DNA of 64,000 nucleotides from Lachnospiraceae bacterium (lineage in GTDB: Bacteria > Bacillota > Clostridia > Lachnospirales > Lachnospiraceae): NCBI GenBank assembly GCA_017940415.1, contig JAGAYR010000044.1:1-64000 (forward strand). The letters run 5' to 3'. The translations under genes and the position numbers were made by a program. The notes below the pieces were generated by a model. It saw only the letters and a list, made by a program, of their open reading frames with translations, was not told where the DNA came from and made no database searches. Positions 2,014-50,618 of the stretch are shown here, one piece after another; position 1 is the stretch's first letter; each line of letters starts with the position of its first letter.

Positions 2014-3495
2014 ATGGAAGACAAACAGAGCATTAAGTATCAGGAGATGGCTCTTGCCAATCTGAGGATGCTGCAGGCCTCCACGGTACTGTGCAGTATC
2101 ATTTCTCTGGCGTATATCGCTGAGATATTCAAACACGCCAGAACGGTGGGATATGTACTTTTGGTCATTGTTCTTGCACTTACCCCTTCCATCATCGGAT
2201 GGTTTATCTACAATTCCAATAATGCAGCGGAAGCAATCAGACACCTCATAGGTATCGGATATGCCATCATGTACTGCTTTGTTCTTTTTACTACGGAAAA
2301 TATCCTGGTTTTCGTATATGTATTCCCGATGCTTGTTATCATCACTCTTTATGACGACACCGCGTTTATATCCAAGATCGGTATCGGATGTATTGTTGTA
2401 AATATGATATCCATTGTGCTCTCTCTCAAAAACGGTACTATCACTGATTCCGCAGTAGCAGAGATTCAGGGATTTGTTATGGTGGTTACCGTTGCATATC
2501 TGATAATGGTTAGTCTGACCAACAGCAAGCTTCAGAAAATGCGTACCGAAAGTCTTGAAGGAGCGAATGCCAAGACTCAGGCTCTTTTGGACAATATTCT
2601 CACAGTGTCAGACAGAGTAACAGATACCGCAGGACAGCTTTCCGATGAAATGGGAATGCTCAAGTCATCGATTGACAGAACCATTGAATCCATGGAAGAG
2701 GTCAGACAGGGTACCAATGAGTCTGCGGAAGCTGCTCAGGTTCAGCTTGTTCAGACTACCAAGATTTCAGATCATATCGAGACCGTAAGATCTTCAGCTG
2801 ATGTTATCACCGAAAATGTTGAAGTCGCTTCGGATGCTGTATCTGTTGGACAGGAGAATATCCGCAGAATGACAGAACTGACAAGTGAAGTTGATTCCGC
2901 AGGTAAGGATGTAGCAGGTGCTCTTGAGAAGTTTAAGAAGACCGCTGATGAAATGAATTCCATAACCGTTATCATCACGGATGTTGCATCACAGACAAGA
3001 CTCCTTGCACTCAACGCTTCCATCGAAGCTGCACGTGCCGGTGAAGCGGGAAGAGGATTTGCGGTTGTTGCAACCGAGATATCTAATCTTGCAGGACAGA
3101 CTACCAAGGCTACAGAAAATATCAACGCTCTCATCGGTGATGTTGTAAATCAGGTAGGTACAATGGTAACCACCATTGAAAAGCTTCTCCAGATCGATGA
3201 TGAAGAAAGCAAGTGCGCTGTTGACACAGCAGACAGCTTTAATAAGATTTCCGGAACCGTTGACATCATCAAGAAGCATACCGCCGATCTTGATGATCTT
3301 GTGGGAAGACTTTCACAGGCTAATGAGGATATCGTAAACAGCATTCAGACTACTTCAGCTGTTACGGAAGAGGTTACCGCACATGCTACCGAAACCTACG
3401 ATGTCAGCCTTCAGAATCAGGAAGTCGTTAATGCTCTCGGTAATCTTGTTAGCAGCCTCAATGAGGATGCGGAGCTTCTTAAGGCGGGCAGATAA
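2014..3495 (+). CDS. Methyl-accepting chemotaxis protein, polytopic membrane type
   Basis: This is a chemoreceptor signalling protein of 493 residues. About six hydrophobic segments occupy residues 15-170 with short loops only, so there is no large extracellular ligand domain. Sensing must occur within or near the membrane or in the cytoplasm. The cytoplasmic part is a long coiled coil carrying the hairpin tip LLALNASIEAARAGEAGRGF (about 328-347), which binds CheA/CheW. The start is supported by GGGAGAGG upstream. An intrinsic terminator follows directly. The gene implies a motile or surface-moving relative, but no flagellar or che genes are in the window. Confidence 0.92.
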   Translation: MEDKQSIKYQEMALANLRMLQASTVLCSIISLAYIAEIFKHARTVGYVLLVIVLALTPSIIGWFIYNSNNAAEAIRHLIGIGYAIMYCFVLFTTENILVFVYVFPMLVIITLYDDTAFISKIGIGCIVVNMISIVLSLKNGTITDSAVAEIQGFVMVVTVAYLIMVSLTNSKLQKMRTESLEGANAKTQALLDNILTVSDRVTDTAGQLSDEMGMLKSSIDRTIESMEEVRQGTNESAEAAQVQLVQTTKISDHIETVRSSADVITENVEVASDAVSVGQENIRRMTELTSEVDSAGKDVAGALEKFKKTADEMNSITVIITDVASQTRLLALNASIEAARAGEAGRGFAVVATEISNLAGQTTKATENINALIGDVVNQVGTMVTTIEKLLQIDDEESKCAVDTADSFNKISGTVDIIKKHTADLDDLVGRLSQANEDIVNSIQTTSAVTEEVTAHATETYDVSLQNQEVVNALGNLVSSLNEDAELLKAGR

Positions 3496-3541: not shown

Positions 3542-3550
3542 ATATATTGA

Positions 3551-3579
3551 TTGACAGTATGCGTAGGATTGTATACAAT
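3551..3579 (+). promoter_or_regulatory. Sigma-A promoter of the GntR-type regulator gene
   Basis: A perfect -35 TTGACA (3551-3556) is followed by a 17-bp spacer and -10 TACAAT (3574-3579). An apparently longer open frame beginning with this TTG is therefore not the coding start. Confidence 0.8.
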
Positions 3580-3606
3580 AATACACGTTGTTAAGCGTGT
3601 ATTATT
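3568..3606 (+). promoter_or_regulatory. Two overlapping dyads, probable operator of the GntR-type regulator
   Basis: ATTGTATACAAT (3568-3579) is a perfect 12-bp palindrome covering the -10 box. Its core, TTGTATACAA, resembles FadR-subfamily operators. A second dyad has perfect 11-bp arms, AATAATACACG (3577-3587) and CGTGTATTATT (3596-3606), with an 8-base gap over the expected transcription start. Their position favours autorepression. This is inference from position and motif. Confidence 0.55.
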
Positions 3607-4345: not shown

Positions 4346-5554
4346 ATGGCAAAGATTCAGATGAAAACACCCCTTGTCGAGATGGACGGAGATGAGATGA
4401 CCAGAGTACTCTGGCAGATGATCAAGGATGAGCTTATCACTCCTTATGTTGATCTTAAGACAGAGTATTACGATCTCGGACTTGAGCACAGAAATGAAAC
4501 CAATGATCAGGTTACCGTTGATTCAGCCAATGCGACCCTTAAATACGGCGTTGCGGTTAAATGTGCCACCATCACTCCCAATGCGGCAAGAATGACCGAA
4601 TATAACCTTAAGGAGATGTGGAAGAGCCCCAACGGAACAATCCGAGCTATTCTTGACGGAACCGTATTCAGAGCTCCCATTCTTGTAAAGGGAATCAGAC
4701 CCTATGTTTCCAACTGGACCAAGCCCATCACTCTTGCACGTCACGCTTACGGTGATGTCTATAAAAATACCGAGATAGCTGTTCCCGGAGCAGGTAAGGC
4801 AGAGCTTGTTTTCACCGCTGCCGACGGAACCGAGACCAGAAAGACCATTCAGGAATTCGACGGTCCCGGAATCATTCAGGGAATCCACAATACCGATAAG
4901 TCCATCACCAGCTTTGCAAAGGCATGTTTTGAATATGCGCTTTCAACAAAGCAGGACCTTTGGTTCTCAACCAAGGATACCATTTCCAAGATCTATGATC
5001 ATCACTTCAAAGATATCTTTGCCGATATGTACGAAAAGGAGTATAAGGAGAAATTTGAAGCTGCAGGAATCGAATACTTCTATACTCTCATTGATGATGC
5101 CGTTGCCCGTGTTATCAGAAGTGAAGGCGGATTTATCTGGGCATGTAAGAACTACGACGGAGATGTTATGTCAGACATGGTAGCTACCGCTTACGGTGAT
5201 CTGTCCATGATGACTTCCGTACTTGTATCTCCCAAGGGAGTTTATGAGTACGAGGCAGCTCACGGAACCGTTCAGAGACATTACTACAAGCACCTTAAGG
5301 GAGAGAAAACTTCCACCAACTCCATTGCTACTATCTTTGCATGGACCGGAGCTCTTAAGAAGAGAGGAGAGCTTGACGGAATCGCAGAGCTTTCAGAGTT
5401 CGCCGAGAAGCTTGAGAAAGCTTGCATCAAGACCATCGAAGACGGCAAGATGACCAAGTCTCTTTCTCTTATCTCTGATTGCAAGGATCCCGTTATTCTT
5501 GATTCTGAAGGATTCATCAAAGCTATCAAGGAAACTTTTGAAACTCTTATGTAA
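4346..5554 (+). CDS. icd: NADP-dependent isocitrate dehydrogenase
   Basis: This cytosolic enzyme of 402 residues oxidises isocitrate to 2-oxoglutarate with NADP+. It belongs to the homodimeric type II family shared with eukaryotes, as shown by [14 protein letters not shown] at the N-terminus, GTVFRAPI and the RPYVSNW segment. The cofactor region [18 protein letters not shown] (about 293-310) is NADP-type. The SD AGGAG lies upstream and a strong terminator downstream. In fermentative bacteria it provides 2-oxoglutarate for glutamate synthesis plus NADPH. That fits with NfnAB, proBA and gltX elsewhere in the window. Confidence 0.95.
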
Positions 5555-5583
5555 TTAAAATGAAGCGTCCCTATTTTCATTTA

Positions 5584-5613
5584 AAGGAAGCCGATGTTTC
5601 GGCTTCCTTTTTT
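5584..5613 (+). terminator. Intrinsic terminator after icd
   Basis: The stem AAGGAAGCCG/CGGCTTCCTT with loop ATGTTT is followed by a T run. It isolates icd from the bacteriocin-like cluster. Confidence 0.92.
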
Positions 5614-5621
5614 GTATCTAT

Positions 5622-5732
5622 TTCTGCAATATTCGTCCGCATTCTGCAACAGGTATCGTCATAGTCAGATTCATAGGATATATTAAAATTGCCGTACGGC
5701 GGTATACCATCATTCCCCGGGGATTGCGCAAT
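5622..5732 (+). promoter_or_regulatory. Candidate control region of the bacteriocin-like cluster
   Basis: The 245-base gap 5614-5858 carries two direct repeats, TTCTGCAA (5622-5629 and 5642-5649), 20 bp apart. After these comes a weak promoter, TAGTCA (5662-5667), 16 bp and TAAAAT (5684-5689). Four perfect palindromes then lie almost back to back: GCCGTACGGC (5691-5700), GGTATACC (5701-5708), TCCCCGGGGA (5714-5723) and ATTGCGCAAT (5723-5732). A second possible -10, TATAAG, lies at 5745-5750. Regulation is inferred; no regulator gene lies in the cluster. Confidence 0.35.
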
Positions 5733-5858
5733 CAAAACGGAATGTATAAGAATCTAAACTCAAAAATGTGTGTATGTTCAAAAAGTCTGTGAGGGGAGCA
5801 TCATAATTCTTAAGACCTTAAGGACTTACTCGGACAGAAGTTACAGAAAGGAAAAAAT

Positions 5859-6080
5859 ATGTTTAACATAGTTGAAGTACTTGGAACATCTTGGGGCGTC
5901 GGAAACCTTATCTATGATTATCTTACAGGTGCAGCATGGTGGGCATGGCTCATCGATGCGGGATTCCTTGTAGCCGGTGTTATTTCCGGAGGAACCGCTG
6001 CACTTATTAAAGAGGCTGGAAAACTCGGACTTAAGGCAGCTATTAAGGGCCTTACAAAGTCTGCTGCAATTGCGCTCTAA
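5859..6080 (+). CDS. Putative circular (head-to-tail) bacteriocin precursor
   Basis: The peptide has 73 residues and no classical signal peptide, double-glycine leader or cysteine. It is very hydrophobic and alanine/glycine rich. Two helical hydrophobic stretches (about 25-50) are followed by a C-terminal amphipathic helix whose five lysines fall exactly every fourth residue: 51, 55, 59, 63 and 67. It ends in AAIAL. Circularin A, uberolysin and carnocyclin-type precursors share a short leader, a hydrophobic core, a Gly-Gly turn, a cationic C-terminal helix and a hydrophobic last residue. By analogy the leader may be residues 1-7, giving a ~66-residue ring starting at Leu8. That cleavage site is a guess. 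The SD AAAGGAA is strong. The four downstream genes match a circular-bacteriocin export and immunity set. Confidence 0.72.
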   Translation: MFNIVEVLGTSWGVGNLIYDYLTGAAWWAWLIDAGFLVAGVISGGTAALIKEAGKLGLKAAIKGLTKSAAIAL

Positions 6081-6097
6081 TCAATAAAGAATAATAT

Positions 6098-6123
6098 GGG
6101 GTGGTGAAATATTTTGCCACCCT
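6098..6123 (+). terminator. Possible attenuator between precursor and export genes
   Basis: The stem GGGGTGG (6098-6104) / CCACCCT (6117-6123) has a 12-base loop and is followed by an A/T-rich tail without a clean T run. It could reduce read-through, so that peptide mRNA exceeds the transport genes. It is weak as a terminator. Confidence 0.4.
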
Positions 6124-6148
6124 CATATTTATTTAGGTCAAGTATATC

Positions 6149-7849
6149 ATGTATATATTCACCAAAATCTTGATGTATATAAATCTGTTTTTTTCAATCA
6201 ACAAAAATATGTTTTTCGAAAAATACAAATTTATTTCATTGAGTGAAAAGAAAAAAAAGAGCTTTTATGCTGTCTGGTTCTTTATACAGAATTATGTATT
6301 TCTTATGATCGGTACTCTTGTAATCTATAAACTGTTCAAGAGTACTTTAGTCTGCGGTGCAATCTGTTTTTTTCATCTTATTTCCGGATTTTTCCAAATA
6401 GACTCCAATGACTGGAAGGCATTTGAGAGAAATGATTTTGTAATGGCGTTCCCGCAAAAAAGTAAAAGATGTTTCATGGTGCTTGTGGGAAATCTTATAT
6501 ACCGTTTATTCATCAGTAACAACATTGTATTTTACGGAATCATCACGGGATTGTTATTTGGGATGAAAACAATAGGCATAGTCTGTTTCATTATGCTCTA
6601 TCTGATAATATATATGATTTCTGAGCTTGTGGTATTTACCGTAAGATACAGTACCATCGGGATCAAAAAATTCTACAGTATATTCGGTTATGTTTTTTCA
6701 ATGTCCGTAACCTCACTTGTGATATATGCGATCTTTCAGGCGGGCATATACCTGGCAACACAAATAATAAAAAAGCAGCTGGATAAAGATAATATTCTTG
6801 CGGAGTTTGAATTACTGGTCGGAAGGATAAGTATTTGGTTTACGGAGCATAAGATTGTATTGGCTTCGTTGGCTGCTGTATTTGCCCTTTTTATAACCGC
6901 AAGCTTTATATATACCTTATATGTTCTCAAACACAATTTTTATTCCGAAAAAGATAAGAGTAAGTATGTGGTTAAGAATTTCAGATTTATCAGATTTTTC
7001 AGATTCTTAATGCATAGCATCGCTAAGTCTGACAATCACTATATTGCTCTTTCGGATAAAGAATATGCGCTATATGCCGATGTGTATAAATTTAATTATA
7101 AGAATTACTGGTATGTGATGATAGCAGACAGACCTTTGGCAATTATGATAGCAGTTATAGCAGTTCTCTATGATCATATGTTTGAAGGATGCGAGCTTTT
7201 GCTTCTCGGGATTCTTCCCTGCTTTTTTATGCTGGATATAAATTCAGCAACGACTGTAAAGCTTCTTGTAAACATGTCCTTTATCTCGGATTACAATACA
7301 ATACTGTTTGCGAATACGTCGGGAATAAGTTTAAAAGAACTCATCCGGGCTAAACTGAGGTTTTATTATGTGACCAAATCTGTCAGCACGGTTGTATTTT
7401 TCATAACGTCGAATCTTATAATGTATGTCTTTGGCTGTGAACCGGCTATCTATATTTTGACCAATCTGCTTTGTCTGATAATTCTTATTGTTTTTCCCGA
7501 GAATTATCTTATCAGCAATCTTATATATACCAGGCTGAATTACAAACAATATGAGAAGTATCTTGATGAATCTCAGATTCTTGAAGTTGGGTCCCGGGAG
7601 TTTTTTCCCTTGAATCTTTTATACAGGGTAATGACCACACTGGTTTTTCTTGCCCTCATAGTTTTGCTTTTCGGAACACGTTTCTCATTCAGGATAAGTG
7701 AATATCTGATCATGGGAATTATGTTTTCCGTTTTTATTATCGGAATCTTTTTATGCAGAAAGATCATGAAGAGGGTCGGAAACAATATTTTAGCATTTGT
7801 GGAAAGGGGTGATTACTCTGCGGACTTTGCTAAGATATTCAAAAAATAA
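6149..7849 (+). CDS. Large polytopic membrane protein of circular bacteriocin cluster
   Basis: The 566-residue product has about 12 hydrophobic segments spread along its length and no soluble domain. The cytoplasmic loops are lysine-rich. I see no catalytic motif. In AS-48-type clusters a membrane protein of similar size (As-48B type, around 560 residues) follows the precursor gene and is needed for maturation, cyclisation or secretion. Size, topology and position here agree. The start at 6149 has only a weak SD (AGG 12 bases upstream); ATG 6173 is an alternative. The base composition is more AT-rich than in neighbouring housekeeping genes, which suggests transfer. The end overlaps the next gene by about 40 bases. 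The role is assigned by context, not by sequence identity. Confidence 0.65.
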   Translation: MYIFTKILMYINLFFSINKNMFFEKYKFISLSEKKKKSFYAVWFFIQNYVFLMIGTLVIYKLFKSTLVCGAICFFHLISGFFQIDSNDWKAFERNDFVMAFPQKSKRCFMVLVGNLIYRLFISNNIVFYGIITGLLFGMKTIGIVCFIMLYLIIYMISELVVFTVRYSTIGIKKFYSIFGYVFSMSVTSLVIYAIFQAGIYLATQIIKKQLDKDNILAEFELLVGRISIWFTEHKIVLASLAAVFALFITASFIYTLYVLKHNFYSEKDKSKYVVKNFRFIRFFRFLMHSIAKSDNHYIALSDKEYALYADVYKFNYKNYWYVMIADRPLAIMIAVIAVLYDHMFEGCELLLLGILPCFFMLDINSATTVKLLVNMSFISDYNTILFANTSGISLKELIRAKLRFYYVTKSVSTVVFFITSNLIMYVFGCEPAIYILTNLLCLIILIVFPENYLISNLIYTRLNYKQYEKYLDESQILEVGSREFFPLNLLYRVMTTLVFLALIVLLFGTRFSFRISEYLIMGIMFSVFIIGIFLCRKIMKRVGNNILAFVERGDYSADFAKIFKK

Positions 7850-8378
7850 AAATATCTTTTTGATCACATTCGTTGTATATGCCCTGACCATAGTTTCACT
7901 TTATCTGATGATCAGGTTTGGCAGGACGATAGTATTTGGTGATGTAAACGAACTTGAAGAATTGGACGTCAGCTATTTCCATGTTTTTTTCGGAAATATA
8001 ATCCTTATCTATAAAACCTATATTCTCGGTTTGATGACTTTCGGTTTGTATGCTTTTTACAGTCATTTCCAGAATACTGTGGGAATTGCCCTTGTAGGTA
8101 AACAATTGCTGTATGAAGGATATGAGAAGCTGGCATATAAGATGATTCCCCACGGATTGATAGAGTTTTTGGGAATGTCATTAGCTTTGGCCACAGTCAT
8201 ATGGTTCTGGATTAAAGTGATTAAGGATGCTCCCGATATCATAAAACGAAAAAAGAATTTTATGGAGACTGTCCGTACGCTGGTAAGCACATTGTTAGTC
8301 TCTGCGATTGCAAATACGTTTATTTTTGCCATTGCCGGTATTGTTGAAGTGTTGGTTTCGCATATAAAGGTTATGTAA
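7797..8378 (+). CDS. SpoIIM/DUF95-type membrane protein of circular bacteriocin cluster
   Basis: The product has about 190 residues and four to five membrane segments. The motif PHGLIEFLGMSLA (near residue 120) matches the PHGxxE signature of the SpoIIM/DUF95 stage II sporulation M family. Members of this family recur in circular bacteriocin loci, where they contribute to secretion or self-protection. The start is uncertain: TTG 7797, GTG 7809, CTG 7818 and TTG 7827 are in frame. An almost ideal SD, AAAGGGGTGAT, at 7803-7813 would best serve 7818. The gene overlaps the preceding one, and its stop overlaps the next start as TAATG, so all are translated as a unit. Confidence 0.72.
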   Translation: MWKGVITLRTLLRYSKNKNIFLITFVVYALTIVSLYLMIRFGRTIVFGDVNELEELDVSYFHVFFGNIILIYKTYILGLMTFGLYAFYSHFQNTVGIALVGKQLLYEGYEKLAYKMIPHGLIEFLGMSLALATVIWFWIKVIKDAPDIIKRKKNFMETVRTLVSTLLVSAIANTFIFAIAGIVEVLVSHIKVM

Positions 8379-9028
8379 TGGAAGATACTAAGAAAAACAC
8401 ATTGATCAGAGTTGAGGATCTGACATACGGATATGAAGATGATCCGGTTATAAAAAATCTTTCCCTGGAAGTAAATGCTGGGGAGATAGTTTTGATCGAA
8501 GGAGAAAACGGTGCGGGTAAGACCACCTTACTCAAATGCATGACCGGAATCCTGAATAACTGTAAGTCTGTTTTTATGGACGGAAAAGAAATTTCCGAAT
8601 GCAAGGAGGAATTGAAGAATATCTCTTTTGTAATGAGTGAGGATTTTCTATATGATTATCTGACTCTGAGGGAGAATGTCGAGTTCTTCAAAAAGCTTTT
8701 TGATGAAGATGCTGACTTCGATAAGAATATAGCTTTTTTTGTAGATAAATTCGGATTGGGCAAGTATGAAGATTATCTGGTTAAGAATCTTTCCCAGGGA
8801 ACCCGTAATAAATTGTATATAGCAATCATGTTTTCGAAACACCATAAAATTCTGGTTCTTGATGAACCGTTTACTGCTCTGGATACAGCAACACAGGATG
8901 TCATACTGGACTATGTCAGGGGGTATACGAAATTAACCGACAAAGCTGTGATCATGGTCACACATATTGCCCAGTTTAAAGAGATATCAACAAAAAGATT
9001 TTTGATGAAATTAAGAGGTGAAATATGA
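8378..9028 (+). CDS. ABC transporter ATP-binding protein (bacteriocin export/immunity)
   Basis: This single nucleotide-binding domain of 216 residues has Walker A GENGAGKTT (about 42-50), a signature written LSQGTRNK instead of LSGGQ, and Walker B ILVLDEPFTALD. It has no membrane segment, so it must pair with the adjacent membrane proteins. Circular bacteriocin loci carry one such ATPase of about this size, for export or for pumping the peptide away from the producer. The start ATG overlaps the stop of the DUF95 gene, and the stop overlaps the start of the following 23-codon gene (ATGA). This tight coupling argues for one functional complex. Confidence 0.88.
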   Translation: MEDTKKNTLIRVEDLTYGYEDDPVIKNLSLEVNAGEIVLIEGENGAGKTTLLKCMTGILNNCKSVFMDGKEISECKEELKNISFVMSEDFLYDYLTLRENVEFFKKLFDEDADFDKNIAFFVDKFGLGKYEDYLVKNLSQGTRNKLYIAIMFSKHHKILVLDEPFTALDTATQDVILDYVRGYTKLTDKAVIMVTHIAQFKEISTKRFLMKLRGEI

Positions 9029-9096
9029 GAGTTGTCATAAGCGGAGTTTTACTTGTAGTTTTTGTTGTCGTTCTTTTGATTCTGAAAAATAAATGA
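9025..9096 (+). CDS. Small membrane peptide, candidate immunity peptide
   Basis: This 23-residue peptide begins MR, continues with one hydrophobic span of about 18 residues rich in Val and Leu, and ends KNK. It would form a single transmembrane helix with a positive tail. The start overlaps the ATPase stop as ATGA, and AAGAGGTGA five bases upstream is a strong SD, so translation is likely. Circular bacteriocin clusters commonly end with a small cationic hydrophobic immunity protein of about 50 residues (As-48D1 type). This one is only half that size, so the assignment rests on position and character. It is easily missed because of its length. Confidence 0.6.
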   Translation: MRVVISGVLLVVFVVVLLILKNK

Positions 9097-9111
9097 TCGT
9101 TTGTAAGGAAT

Positions 9112-9151
9112 AAAAAAAGCGGGGAGCATATCATCGTGCTTCCCGCCTTTT
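9112..9151. terminator. Bidirectional terminator between bacteriocin cluster and ABC-F gene
   Basis: The stem GCGGGGAGCA/TGCTTCCCGC has an 8-base loop. It has a run of A on the left (T on the minus strand) and CTTTT on the right, and serves both convergent genes. Confidence 0.85.
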
Positions 9152-9159
9152 GGTGTCTT

Positions 9160-11097
9160 TTAGCTTAAAGCTTCCCATTTTTCCATGAGTTCTTCGAGTT
9201 CGTTATTCAGTTCGGTTTGTTTCTTGACCAGTTCGTTCAGTTTGGAAGGGCTGGTGGCAACATCGGGCTCAGCCATTTTGGTTTCAATCTCGGAAAGCTC
9301 GTTTTCAATCTCGGTGATCCGGTCTTCACACTTTTTCAGGTCGTTTGCTTTCTTTCTTGCTTCAGCCTGCAGTGCTTTCTGTGCTTTCCAGTCTGCGGCA
9401 CTGTCTGTGGAGGCGGTTCCTGCTTTTTCAGAGACTGATGCGGATGCGGAAGATGAGCTTACGGAAGAATCTCTGTGCACATCACTTGCTTTTCTAACAT
9501 CATCTCTCTTTTCCAGATAGTAATCGTAATTGCCGATGTAGTTATCGAAATATCCTTCGTGAAGTTCAATGATCCTGGTAGATATCTTGTTCACGAAATA
9601 TCTGTCGTGGGATACGCAGATTATTGTTCCTTCAAATTCCGACAGAGCCTGCTCAAGAATCTCCTTGGTGGTGATGTCCAGATGGTTTGTGGGCTCGTCC
9701 AGGATCAGGAAATTGGCATCGGAGAGCATGAGCTTTGCAAGGCTTACACGTCCCTTTTCACCGCCGCTCAGAAGCTTTATCTCTTTATATACGCTGTCGT
9801 CCGTAAAAAGAAATGCAGCAAGCACGGTTCTGATCTGAGTGATCGTCATATCGGGGTGCTCGTCCGAGATCTCATCATAAATGGTATTCTCGGGATTCAG
9901 GACCAGATGCTCCTGATCGTAGTAAGCGGTCTCTACATTGCTTCCCCACTTAAATGAACCTGTATCCGAAGTCTCCAGTCCGTTAAGTATTTTCAGGAAT
10001 GTGGTCTTGCCGGTTCCGTTGTCTCCGATTATGCAGACATGTTCACCGCGTTTGATCTCCACGTTCATGTCTTTAAAAAGAGTACGTCCGTCGAAGGATT
10101 TGGACAGATTCTCAACTGTAAGGACATCGTTTCCCGGAACCTTTGAGGGTTTGAATCTCAGATTTATCTCATTGGATATGACTTCCGGTCTGTCCAGAAC
10201 CTCGATCTTCTCAAGAGCTTTTTCACGGCTTTCGGCACGCTTTATGGATTTCTCCCTGTTAAAGCTCTTAAGCTTTTCTATAACTTCTTCCTGATGCTTG
10301 ATTTCCTGCTGCTGATTGATATATGCCTTCATCTGAGCTTCGAAAAGCATTTTTTTCTTGGAGGCATAATCGGAATAATTGCCCTTGTATGAATTTACAT
10401 GGGTGTTTTCAAGCTCCAAAACTGTATCTGCGATCTTATCCAGGAAGTATCTGTCGTGGGAGACTATTAATACGGCTCCGTCATAAGAACTCAGATATCC
10501 TTCAAGCCAGATGACAGAATTCATATCAAGATGGTTTGTGGGCTCGTCCAGTATTATCAGGTCGGGCTTTTTAACAAGTATCGCACCAAGTGCTGCTCGG
10601 GTTTTCTGGCCTCCCGATAAAGTGGATGCTTTTCTGTCAAAATCATCCTCCGAAAAGCCGAGACCTTTGAGTACACCGACTATTTCGGATCGGAAAGTAT
10701 AGCCGCCCTTAAGATCAAATTCCGTGCGCAGCTTTTCATATCTGTCGCAGACAGCACTTACGTCATCCGCACCCTCCATCTGAGCTTCCAAAGAGCGGAG
10801 ATCTTCCTCCATTTTGACCAGCTCGGATCTGCAAAGGAGCATCTCTTCGAAAATGGTTCCTCCGCCTGAAAATGTCCCCTCCTGGGACAGGTATCCGAAG
10901 GATGAATCCTTCTCATAGGTGACAATTCCCGTATCGGGTTCCGATTCACCGGTTATAATACGCAGAAGAGTGGTCTTTCCGGATCCGTTGGATCCTACAA
11001 GAGCCGTTTTCTGTCTTCTTTCCACATTAAAAGAAACCCCGCTTAAAATAGGGCCTGTTTCAAATTCTTTTGAAATATTGTTGACGCTTAATAACAT
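9160..11097 (-). CDS. ABC-F family ATPase (ribosome-associated, Uup/YdiF-like)
   Basis: This 645-residue protein has two ABC domains and no membrane segment. The first has Walker A GSNGSGKTT, signature LSGGQKTR and Walker B LIILDEPTNHLD. The second has GDNGTGKTT, LSGGEKGR and LILDEPTNHLD. A charged interdomain linker near residues 250-320 and a C-terminal coiled coil (about 560-645) are typical of ABC-F proteins. These act on the ribosomal E site, relieving stalling or giving antibiotic protection. Which member this is cannot be said from the motifs. The start is ATG 11097 (MLLSVNNISK). An in-frame ATG at 11148 would add a non-conserved leader overlapping the rex promoter region. The gene is convergent with the bacteriocin cluster and probably unrelated to it. 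Confidence 0.92.
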   Translation of the reverse strand: MLLSVNNISKEFETGPILSGVSFNVERRQKTALVGSNGSGKTTLLRIITGESEPDTGIVTYEKDSSFGYLSQEGTFSGGGTIFEEMLLCRSELVKMEEDLRSLEAQMEGADDVSAVCDRYEKLRTEFDLKGGYTFRSEIVGVLKGLGFSEDDFDRKASTLSGGQKTRAALGAILVKKPDLIILDEPTNHLDMNSVIWLEGYLSSYDGAVLIVSHDRYFLDKIADTVLELENTHVNSYKGNYSDYASKKKMLFEAQMKAYINQQQEIKHQEEVIEKLKSFNREKSIKRAESREKALEKIEVLDRPEVISNEINLRFKPSKVPGNDVLTVENLSKSFDGRTLFKDMNVEIKRGEHVCIIGDNGTGKTTFLKILNGLETSDTGSFKWGSNVETAYYDQEHLVLNPENTIYDEISDEHPDMTITQIRTVLAAFLFTDDSVYKEIKLLSGGEKGRVSLAKLMLSDANFLILDEPTNHLDITTKEILEQALSEFEGTIICVSHDRYFVNKISTRIIELHEGYFDNYIGNYDYYLEKRDDVRKASDVHRDSSVSSSSASASVSEKAGTASTDSAADWKAQKALQAEARKKANDLKKCEDRITEIENELSEIETKMAEPDVATSPSKLNELVKKQTELNNELEELMEKWEALS

Positions 11098-42599: not shown

Positions 42600-42986
42600 T
42601 TAAGATTGTTTTTCGATGAGATCGTTTATTTCCTTAACCTTGTTTTTGAGACTCAGCATATCCAGGAATTCGCATACGATGAGTATAAAAGCCGTAAATC
42701 CTATCAGAACAGGTAATGACAGGCTTTCGTACCATGAAAATATATAACCGCTGATAATTGCCAGTATAATGGCATATATGAGCTTGATTCCTGTTTCTAC
42801 AAGAGCCAGATTGATCTCTATCTTATTGATAAGAGTTATTCCTGCATATATAAGGATATTTACGCCGAGAGCCTGAAATACGGTGTTCAGGCATAAGAAT
42901 GTTGCATTATAGCAAAGCGCAATCAGGGAGAGAGCCACAAGTGTTATCCCTGTCATTGCAAATATATTGATTATCGTCTTTTTCAC
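42600..42986 (-). CDS. DUF3021-like four-TM membrane protein
   Basis: This protein of 128 residues has four hydrophobic segments (about 8-28, 36-54, 65-83 and 90-110) and a charged C-terminus. Its size, topology and immediate overlap with a LytTR regulator gene match the DUF3021/LytTR module of Firmicutes, in which the membrane protein restrains the regulator. The assignment is mainly by this context. It overlaps the LytTR gene by four bases. Confidence 0.75.
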   Translation of the reverse strand: MKKTIINIFAMTGITLVALSLIALCYNATFLCLNTVFQALGVNILIYAGITLINKIEINLALVETGIKLIYAIILAIISGYIFSWYESLSLPVLIGFTAFILIVCEFLDMLSLKNKVKEINDLIEKQS

Positions 42987-43432
42987 AATGAATTCCTCCG
43001 CAGGAGTACATCCCTGATATCATTAAGATAATTTCTCTTAACACAGATTCTCTCGCCGTTTATCAGTATTGCTTCCAGCTTTGAATTGGGAAGATTTTTT
43101 ATTCCTTTAAGTTTTTCGACATTAATGATAACGGATCTGCTTACCCTTACAAAACCTGCACCGGATAGCATTTTTTCCAGTTCCAGTAATCTGTGCGATG
43201 TTTGATATACTTCGGACTTTGTGTAGATAAATCCTTTTTTATCTACACTTTCCATATAATAGATTTTATTTACGGGAACAGAATATTCTTCGTTTTCTTT
43301 TTTACAGGTTATGACCTTGTCCACGGATCTGACAAAATCCGAGACTCTTTTAACGTTACCGGATATTTCCCTGTACTCAATCGTTACTTCCGGCTCTCCC
43401 ATATTCGGGTTTTCTTTCATTATCAGCTGCAT
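42983..43432 (-). CDS. LytTR-type DNA-binding regulator
   Basis: This protein of up to 149 residues has a C-terminal LytTR DNA-binding domain (about 45-148). It contains VNKIYYMESVDKKGFIYT, the conserved FVRVSRSVIINVEKL (about 104-118) and ERICVKRNYLNDIRDVL. There is no receiver domain, so control must come from the neighbouring DUF3021-like membrane protein. The first ATG (43432) lies inside the upstream CPBP gene with about 56 bases of overlap. ATG 43420 or 43402 may be used instead. The 21-bp-phased repeats before the operon are the probable binding site. Confidence 0.85.
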   Translation of the reverse strand: MQLIMKENPNMGEPEVTIEYREISGNVKRVSDFVRSVDKVITCKKENEEYSVPVNKIYYMESVDKKGFIYTKSEVYQTSHRLLELEKMLSGAGFVRVSRSVIINVEKLKGIKNLPNSKLEAILINGERICVKRNYLNDIRDVLLRRNSL

Positions 43433-50243: not shown

Positions 50244-50618
50244 GGGGTAGTTAAGGTTTCGACAGGGAATTTGAAACTGGAGAAGCTGTCCGGTGCGAAC
50301 CGTTAATCGCAACCTAAAATAAACGCTGATAACAATCAGTACGCACTCGCTGCCTAATAAGTAGCGCGTGACGCCCATTTAAGGGCTCGTCGGCCCATTG
50401 CACTCACGCTTTGGGGTTCCGGCGTCGCATCGTGAGAAACGGTGTATGGTAAGCTTTGCCCATGCATACGTATTATGAAGCTACCCCGGAAGTGAGTTTG
50501 TCAGGAGCGCTCATTTCCGGAGGAACGTGCCTGCAGAAGGCAAAAGAACTGACTATGACAGTAGAATGACAGAGGGATGGTTCTTTGGACACGGGTTCGA
50601 CTCCCGTCTACTCCACTA
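50244..50618 (+). ncRNA. ssrA: Transfer-messenger RNA (tmRNA)
   Basis: The 5' end GGGGTAG pairs with CTACTCC (50608-50614) and includes a G3-U pair, the alanine identity element. A T arm, ACGGG/CCCGT with TTCGACT, occupies 50591-50607. The tag frame at 50325-50354 encodes ADNNQYALAA and is followed by TAATAA, giving a tag ending in the usual proteolysis signal ALAA. After the discriminator A (50615) the genome reads CTA, so the CCA end is not encoded and must be added. The smpB gene upstream and the terminator downstream complete the unit. Confidence 0.95.

Follow-up and report, generated by a model that had tools for sequence, protein, structure and literature searches.

Circular-bacteriocin clusters are recognized by a minimal set comprising a precursor gene, a DUF95 gene and a gene for an ATP-binding protein, according to PMC8534725 and PMC8659200. 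In circularin A/uberolysin-type loci these genes follow the order precursor, large membrane protein, SpoIIM protein, ATPase and small hydrophobic protein. Group ii circular bacteriocins, including butyrivibriocin AR10 and gassericin A, are described with long leaders and 58-residue cores, with one or two basic residues in butyrivibriocin (PMC7132975, PMC6131525), and butyrivibriocin AR10 is given as the product of a ruminal anaerobe (PMC7132975). Nine circular bacteriocins were already predicted in Lachnospiraceae in 2026, as reported in PMC13289728, and such peptides are not new as such in the family. Here, five open reading frames, genes A to E, were examined at positions 5859–9096 of the forward strand of the window, the 64,000-nucleotide stretch of Lachnospiraceae DNA that was analyzed. 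A precursor-like gene, a SpoIIM gene (PF01944) and an ATP-binding gene occur together in the window, which contains the minimal set described in the literature. A large polytopic membrane protein, B, adjoins them and is counted as a member by its presence rather than by sequence homology. As read from sequence, A–E would form a five-gene circular-bacteriocin cluster from which a putative ring peptide is made and exported, an interpretation with a probability of just under four in five.

Three loci matching the circular-bacteriocin model TIGR03651 (L048, L049 and L050) served as yardsticks. The search that yielded them matched three of 391 genomes, and the two over the cut-off supplied the three loci; a further search matched seven of 324 genomes, with one over the cut-off (G278, close to a contig start). 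The first-pass annotation had listed the five genes, three of them with sizes, overlapping starts and stops in the last four, and the composition and order of a circular-bacteriocin locus, all of which were confirmed: neighboring reading frames overlap at B/C, C/D and D/E, and the same order recurs in all three TIGR03651 loci, with C much shortened in L048 (61 aa compared with 193 aa in the window). The circularin A/uberolysin-type loci (L048 and L050) also share with the window the overlap of the B and C genes and a Cys-free, hydrophobic core of helical type with Lys/Arg towards the C-terminus. In contrast, window A is unmatched by the models for this type (TIGR03651 and PF09221), possesses an AWWAW segment and ends in Leu where the L048–L050 precursors end in Trp, and the 23-aa E protein is shorter than its counterparts of 57 aa (L048) and 96 aa (L050). 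The cluster is AT-rich and is absent from the corresponding site in all congeners examined; it is a small inserted island. A search of Rfam over positions 5400–9300 produced no match.

Gene A (5859–6080, forward strand) encodes a putative circular-bacteriocin precursor of 73 aa that is free of Cys, has a GRAVY value of 0.89, is rich in Trp, and includes five Lys, with lysine borne in the C-terminal third. The pN/pS values of 0.143/0.722 indicate that purifying selection acts on A. The identification of A as a circular-bacteriocin precursor had been proposed in the first-pass annotation, along with a search of PF09221 and related profiles. The profile element of this proposal failed: A matched neither PF09221 (Bacteriocin_IId) nor any other Pfam circular-bacteriocin model, and TIGR03651 matched neither window A nor its homolog in locus L056, whereas PF09221 and TIGR03651 each recognized all three yardstick precursors used as positive controls. 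Window A gave zero Pfam matches at E<=10, and PDB searches retrieved no circular bacteriocin, whether the query was A by itself or a profile of its two members, whereas circular bacteriocins headed the lists obtained with the yardsticks. What was upheld is a distant but significant similarity to known precursors. Alignment of the A profile with these proteins by hhalign gave E=4.2e-4, which was reached by none of 400 shuffles, the alignment spanned nearly the whole length of A, and the summed pairwise score exceeded those of all 391 natural hydrophobic segments. In global pairwise comparison with AS-48, A scored above shuffles (p 0.006; 0/1000 for the L056 homolog), the local score of window A against AS-48 was marginal (p 0.05), and pairwise comparisons with NKR-5-3B and carnocyclin A were not significant. 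BLASTP of A against the yardstick precursors returned nothing <0.1, and the L056 homolog matched the L048 precursor at 0.002. These comparisons mark A as a distant relative of circular-bacteriocin precursors that is outside the curated families and that probably represents a new precursor subfamily.

The best guess for the leader of A is the tripeptide MFN, leaving a core of 70 aa from Ile4 to Leu73, because unbroken identity with the L056 homolog begins at Ile4. A circular bacteriocin is expected to have a core of 58–70 aa with hydrophobic residues at both ligation ends; with this leader, those ends would be Ile4 and Leu73, and the computed cyclic pI is 9.6. The core length of 70, the leader of three residues and the pI are inside the ranges published in PMC6131525 and PMC8534725. 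Computed average masses are 7508.8 Da for the precursor, 7116.3 Da for the linear core and 7098.3 Da (7093.9 monoisotopic) for cyc(Ile4–Leu73). With this leader, the core would be of the same length as that of enterocin AS-48 (70 residues), although A retrieves AS-48 in neither PDB nor profile searches. The C-terminal residue of A is Leu; the group logos in PMC8659200 have mostly Trp or Tyr at this end, and Ala in two groups. A saposin-like bundle of four to five helices would be the expected fold; a single-sequence AlphaFold prediction of A consists of one long helix (pLDDT 72.6, pTM 0.38). Butyrivibriocin AR10 and gassericin A belong to the same general class as A, but A differs from group ii in its five Lys, its putative 70-residue core and the lack of a long leader, a distinction that had been drawn at the outset. 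The absence of a recognizable leader, together with the Trp-rich, hydrophobic-basic composition, would also suit a linear bacteriocin of the leaderless type that leaves the cell through B-C-D without processing and with its Met still in place, and the saposin-like fold is common to leaderless and circular bacteriocins according to PMC8659200. This alternative is nevertheless improbable: the near-full-length alignment is with circular precursors, and a SpoIIM gene is described in all circular-bacteriocin clusters in PMC6131525.

The product of gene B (6149–7849, forward strand) is a membrane protein of 566 aa in which a simple Kyte-Doolittle scan counts 12 TM-like segments; by position it corresponds to the large membrane protein (423–590 aa in L048–L050) of circular-bacteriocin loci. 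B belongs to no family in Pfam or NCBIfam; its relatives are in L038 (37% identity) and L041 (41%). Pairwise identity between B and the known B proteins is about 17–20% with composition correction off, equal to the level among those proteins. The idea that B is a proven homolog of them was dropped, as hhalign against two known B proteins found nothing and BLASTP with composition correction on gave nothing below 0.28. Gene C (7797–8378, forward strand) specifies a SpoIIM/DUF95 membrane protein of 193 aa (PF01944, E=1.3e-10, 41.9 bits against a cut-off of 26.9) whose start codon is uncertain, the L056 homolog beginning about 30 nt further in. A profile comparison with the uberolysin-type C protein gave a match of 93.9% (E=1.6e-7). 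The PHGxxE motif, IPHGLIEF in C, is a hallmark of the SpoIIM Pfam family; it is conserved in all six SpoIIM-family proteins that were aligned and was set aside for this reason as an argument for a circular bacteriocin. Gene D (8378–9028, forward strand) encodes an ABC transporter ATPase of 216 aa (PF00005, ABC_tran, E=5.8e-27). Among the three yardstick D proteins the uberolysin-type was the best match (E=1.6e-31), and the NCBIfam CcmA model matched at E=3.9e-34, below the CcmA cut-off. On this comparison D is a generic ABC ATPase, with the generic model at least as near as the circular-bacteriocin ATPases. Gene E (9025–9096, forward strand) encodes a basic peptide of 23 aa with a single TM segment, a candidate immunity peptide that recurs in four of five loci at 23–27 aa and 43–48% identity. 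The small proteins of the yardstick loci, at 57–162 aa, are all more than twice as long as E.

In L056, from another genus on the evidence of non-overlapping genus lists, a homolog of A with 81% identity over all 73 residues is located directly upstream of B-C-D-E. This recurrence and the purifying selection on A place the cluster beyond chance. Among the five loci with this B, A is missing beside B in two (L038 and L041), and L055 retains a remnant of 15–20 residues in which the start of A alone is kept. Homologous clusters that lack the peptide, which the first-pass annotation had named as grounds against its proposal, therefore do exist. The L055 remnant is at the position that A has in the intact second copy, and loss of A is accordingly likelier than independence of A and B–E. 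Two loci have B and D without an adjoining A, and in one of these, L041, B-C-D-E are open, which would suit a stand-alone export/immunity module with A as a chance or secondary neighbor. Such a module is nonetheless quite unlikely: two genera share the position of A, a third genome keeps a remnant of it there, and in the comparison of the window with L056 conservation is higher for A than for B, C or D.

When 299 genomes of the family were searched with A, 58 matched at E<=1 and the window's own genome was the sole strong match. The best other match (G265, E=6.5e-5) was rejected as lying inside a 184-aa multi-TM ORF, and the remaining weak matches were taken as chance. A profile search with A matched seven of 61 genomes at E<=1, of which G1160 (3.9e-46) and G1128 (3.4e-5) were used and five at 0.10–0.84 were dropped; a search without positive control found nothing in G116, G261 and G397 at E<=10. 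Searches with B matched seven of 397 genomes (two strongly, and five marginally at 3e-4 to 0.009) and three of 392 genomes (two strongly, one marginally at 3.5e-4), and the marginal matches were dropped; G292, a marginal match to B, was dropped after ORF inspection. No match was found for A in viral contigs, plasmids and PHROGs, for B in viral contigs and plasmids, or for C in plasmids. The empty plasmid result for A says little as two yardstick precursors likewise were unmatched there.

Histidine-kinase-like genes were noted by eye close to the cluster in L041, L055 and L056, which could fit a secreted signal peptide, sensed by a two-component system, rather than a killing peptide. This reading of A is very unlikely, as such genes accompany known circular bacteriocins too (described in PMC6131525), the small membrane peptide E fits immunity, and none was evident by eye among the window ORFs from 1 to about 40 kb, a range that brings 5.9 kb upstream of A into view. 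The view of A as a holin-like or toxin-antitoxin membrane peptide was rejected, as the L056 homolog matched PF16079 only below threshold (E=0.031, 15 bits against 29.2, about half of the cut-off), window A lacked even this match, and A co-occurs with SpoIIM/ABC genes and matches no PHROG.

Terminators on both sides of the cluster had been proposed, and terminator-like hairpins with strong stems were found at 5583–5610, just 3′ of the icd stop codon, and at 9119–9146 (forward strand), between E and a convergent ABC-F gene. The scan returned eight sites in 7 kb compared with 5.4 expected, and the terminator call thus relies on the strong stems. A further hairpin between A and B (6098–6123, forward strand; hairpin scan and fold z -4.4) is absent from the first-pass annotation. 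The A–B interval of L056 also folds (z -3.0), with a sequence different from that of the window hairpin. Direct repeats with 20-nt spacing precede B in L041 and L038; the window has only an 8-nt pair.

For the five-gene circular-bacteriocin cluster, we infer the following pathway. MFN would be removed from the 73-aa precursor and Ile4 joined to Leu73, generating a helical ring of 70 residues whose C-terminal third carries lysine. Processing and export of A may fall to a membrane complex of B, C and D, and E, together with B–D, would protect the producer. The A–B hairpin is perhaps a partial terminator that favors A mRNA and so would keep A in excess. The released ring is predicted to permeabilize Gram-positive neighbors. 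More tentatively, and with the odds slightly against it, A may found a Trp-rich circular-bacteriocin subfamily with a minimal immunity peptide of 23–27 aa that has passed between Lachnospiraceae-type anaerobes on a small chromosomal island, with repeated loss of the toxin gene, such that relatives (SIG280 and E. ruminantium FB3002) would be resistant non-producers with the export/immunity genes alone.

The circular-bacteriocin-like precursor lies beyond the reach of both curated models tested (PF09221 and TIGR03651), and genome mining that demands such a precursor match would therefore pass over the cluster. Anchoring on B, or on the combination of SpoIIM, ATPase and a small upstream ORF, does find it. 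According to PMC6131525, the field has yet to establish what cyclizes circular bacteriocins, and the copies found in nature, some intact, some lacking the peptide and some broken, may provide a route both to what cyclizes the peptide and to which of B–E gives immunity.

The cluster occupies five genes in the window, all at the positions predicted by the first-pass annotation. Peptide A (5859-6080) has 73 residues, is hydrophobic (GRAVY 0.89) and Cys-free as had been claimed, and contains five lysines against four acidic residues. A hairpin at 6098-6123 separates A from B (6149-7849), a 566-residue membrane protein with 12 TM-like segments to which searches of Pfam and NCBIfam assigned no family. 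The gene read earlier as SpoIIM/DUF95 is C (7797-8378), which matches PF01944 (E=1.3e-10), and is followed by the ABC ATPase D (8378-9028) and the 23-residue peptide E (9025-9096).

Comparison was made with three fetched loci whose precursors match TIGR03651, which by our own reading are circularin-like (L048), amylocyclicin-like (L049; closest PDB chain NKR-5-3B) and uberolysin-like (L050). In each, a precursor is accompanied by a membrane protein of 423-590 aa, a protein in the SpoIIM position, an ATPase and a 57-162 aa hydrophobic protein. The gene content and order recognized initially as those of circular bacteriocin loci were borne out in this way, as all three share the order of the window. 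The SpoIIM-position ORF of the circularin-like cluster (L048:7932-8117, minus strand) is just 61 aa, and this cluster and the amylocyclicin-like one reside in the same genome, G744. Window C resembled the uberolysin-type C protein (BLASTP 0.003; profile comparison 93.9%). Window D matched its uberolysin-type counterpart at 1.6e-31, but this evidence is non-specific because a generic CcmA model also scored 3.9e-34, below that model's cut-off. Known B proteins are ~20% identical among themselves and window B shares a similar identity with them when composition correction is off. Neither composition-corrected BLASTP nor profile comparison with known B proteins gave anything significant. Window B is their counterpart by position.

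The first-pass annotation had proposed assigning A with PF09221 and related profiles. The precursors of all three comparison loci pass PF09221 and TIGR03651, whereas window A and its intact relative in L056 (genome G1160) match neither. Circular bacteriocins topped the PDB search list for each comparison precursor, albeit at E 0.1 in the case of L050; they were absent from the list obtained with A. When the two A peptides were aligned with the three comparison precursors by hhalign, the match extended over 63 columns (E=4.2e-4, probability 34%) with a score that was reached by none of 200 full and none of 200 local shuffles. The summed local pairwise score of A against six circular precursors was 256, which compares with a maximum of 225 for 391 natural hydrophobic segments, these being overlapping stretches of longer proteins and hence not independent; two and one of 1000 shuffles of two kinds reached this value. 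The sums between known circular precursors are larger, at 336-537 with five partners. The best single pairwise comparison of A was with L048 (global, 2/1000 shuffles), and scores against NKR-5-3B and carnocyclin A were insignificant. Overall, these sequence comparisons are best explained if A is distantly related to circular bacteriocin precursors but lies outside the curated families.

Among 397 family genomes strong matches to B were confined to the window and isolate SIG280 (G261), with five marginal; 392 order genomes yielded the same two and one marginal match. The window alone matched among 31 genomes of its genus. In the genus of E. ruminantium FB3002 (61 genomes), FB3002 itself (G397), G1128 and G1160 matched, and a scan of genome contigs recovered SIG280 and FB3002. 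The searches together gave five distinct loci: the window, L038 (SIG280), L041 (FB3002), L055 (G1128) and L056. The window, L038 and L041 have an open B reading frame, whereas that of L056 is interrupted and that of L055 truncated. L038 has a shortened C and L055 a split one. D was found in all five loci and E in four, none being seen by eye downstream of D in L038. Intact copies of A occur in the window and L056. These two peptides are 81% identical across 73 residues, compared to 63% for D, 39% for C, and 42% and 44% for the two pieces of B. The pN of A is 0.143 versus a pS of 0.722, which indicates purifying selection on A; its synonymous sites are close to saturated.

Homologous clusters without the peptide, named in the first-pass annotation as evidence against a circular bacteriocin, were encountered in part: A is absent beside B in L038 and L041 and is reduced to its first 15-20 residues in L055. 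A search of the 61 genomes with a two-member A profile recovered G1160, the G1128 remnant and five weak matches elsewhere, with nothing in FB3002 at E<=1. The single A peptide retrieved nothing from SIG280 at E<=10 in a search run without a positive control. The two A-less loci and the remnant fit repeated loss, with the export and immunity genes outlasting the toxin gene. That B-C-D-E instead form a cassette serving other peptides fits less well than repeated loss; L041, where B-C-D-E are open and the profile found no A in the genome, is the test case between the two.

Further features were noted in these loci and elsewhere in the window. A second SpoIIM cassette directly adjoins the broken cluster in L055 (6293-8997, minus strand) and encodes a SpoIIM protein of 182 aa (PF01944 E=8.4e-18), a 489-aa membrane protein and a 227-aa ATPase; a very short ORF just upstream (~9135, minus strand) may be a precursor remnant. 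The stretch L041:131-3134 (plus strand) may be a separate modified-peptide cluster of FB3002: it contains genes for a radical-SAM-like protein (NCBIfam matches weak, below cut-off) and for proteins resembling an ABC ATPase and a permease, together with a Cys/Gly-rich ORF of 51 aa. Upstream of B, direct repeats spaced by 20 nt at L041:5870-5909 and about 3549-3582 (the latter by eye) and at L038:1012-1041 are possible regulator boxes; in L041 a pair of genes resembling a response regulator and a histidine kinase lies close to them. By eye, an ORF of 15 codons whose ribosome-binding-like site is strong (L041, about 3410-3455, minus strand) diverges from the regulator genes and adjoins one repeat pair. 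In the window, a 149-aa ORF (42983-43432, minus strand), LytTR-type DNA-binding-like by eye, lies 34 kb from the cluster, and a tmRNA gene (50244-50616, tag ADNNQYALAA) is set among genes that by eye are ordinary housekeeping-like.

The cluster is located between icd and an ABC-F gene and is AT-rich, with a GC content of 0.357 versus 0.433 for the window; a value this low occurs in one of 304 segments of 3.2 kb. Thirty genus genomes were drawn and icd was obtained from 27, or 26 excluding the window's own. None of the 26 congeners has A or B inside the 1.5 kb flanks of icd. An ABC-F match occurs at the site in 23, convergent as in the window in 21; two of the three congeners without it are represented by short stretches. 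Gaps of just a few dozen bases were seen at the site in L068, L069 and L071. Because of the low GC content and the absence from this site in congeners, the cluster looks like a small inserted island, and we infer insertion in the window rather than loss in the congeners. The site appears variable within the genus, as other ORFs of 246-247 aa intervene between icd and ABC-F in L065 and L066.

The genes of studied clusters are described as required jointly: export is tentatively ascribed to a membrane protein and an ATPase, SpoIIM has been linked to maturation or export, a small peptide confers immunity, and no enzyme for the cleavage and cyclization steps is known (PMC6131525). By analogy with the family, A would be trimmed by three residues, Ile4 would be joined to Leu73, giving a ring with a computed cyclic mass of 7098.3 Da, and the ring would be exported. 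We infer these steps from the family, other than the identity pattern itself: window and L056 A are identical without a break from Ile4 to Gly9 and differ at positions 2-3.

Ten circular bacteriocins, nine in Lachnospiraceae, were predicted in rumen isolates by a precursor-model match plus SpoIIM, and the peptides named in the available part of that source are related to circularin A, amylocyclicin and NKR-5-3B (PMC13289728). No description of the present cluster was found in open-licence PMC literature among the matches listed. The cluster is probably of the circular bacteriocin type already known, with a precursor subfamily that is probably new.
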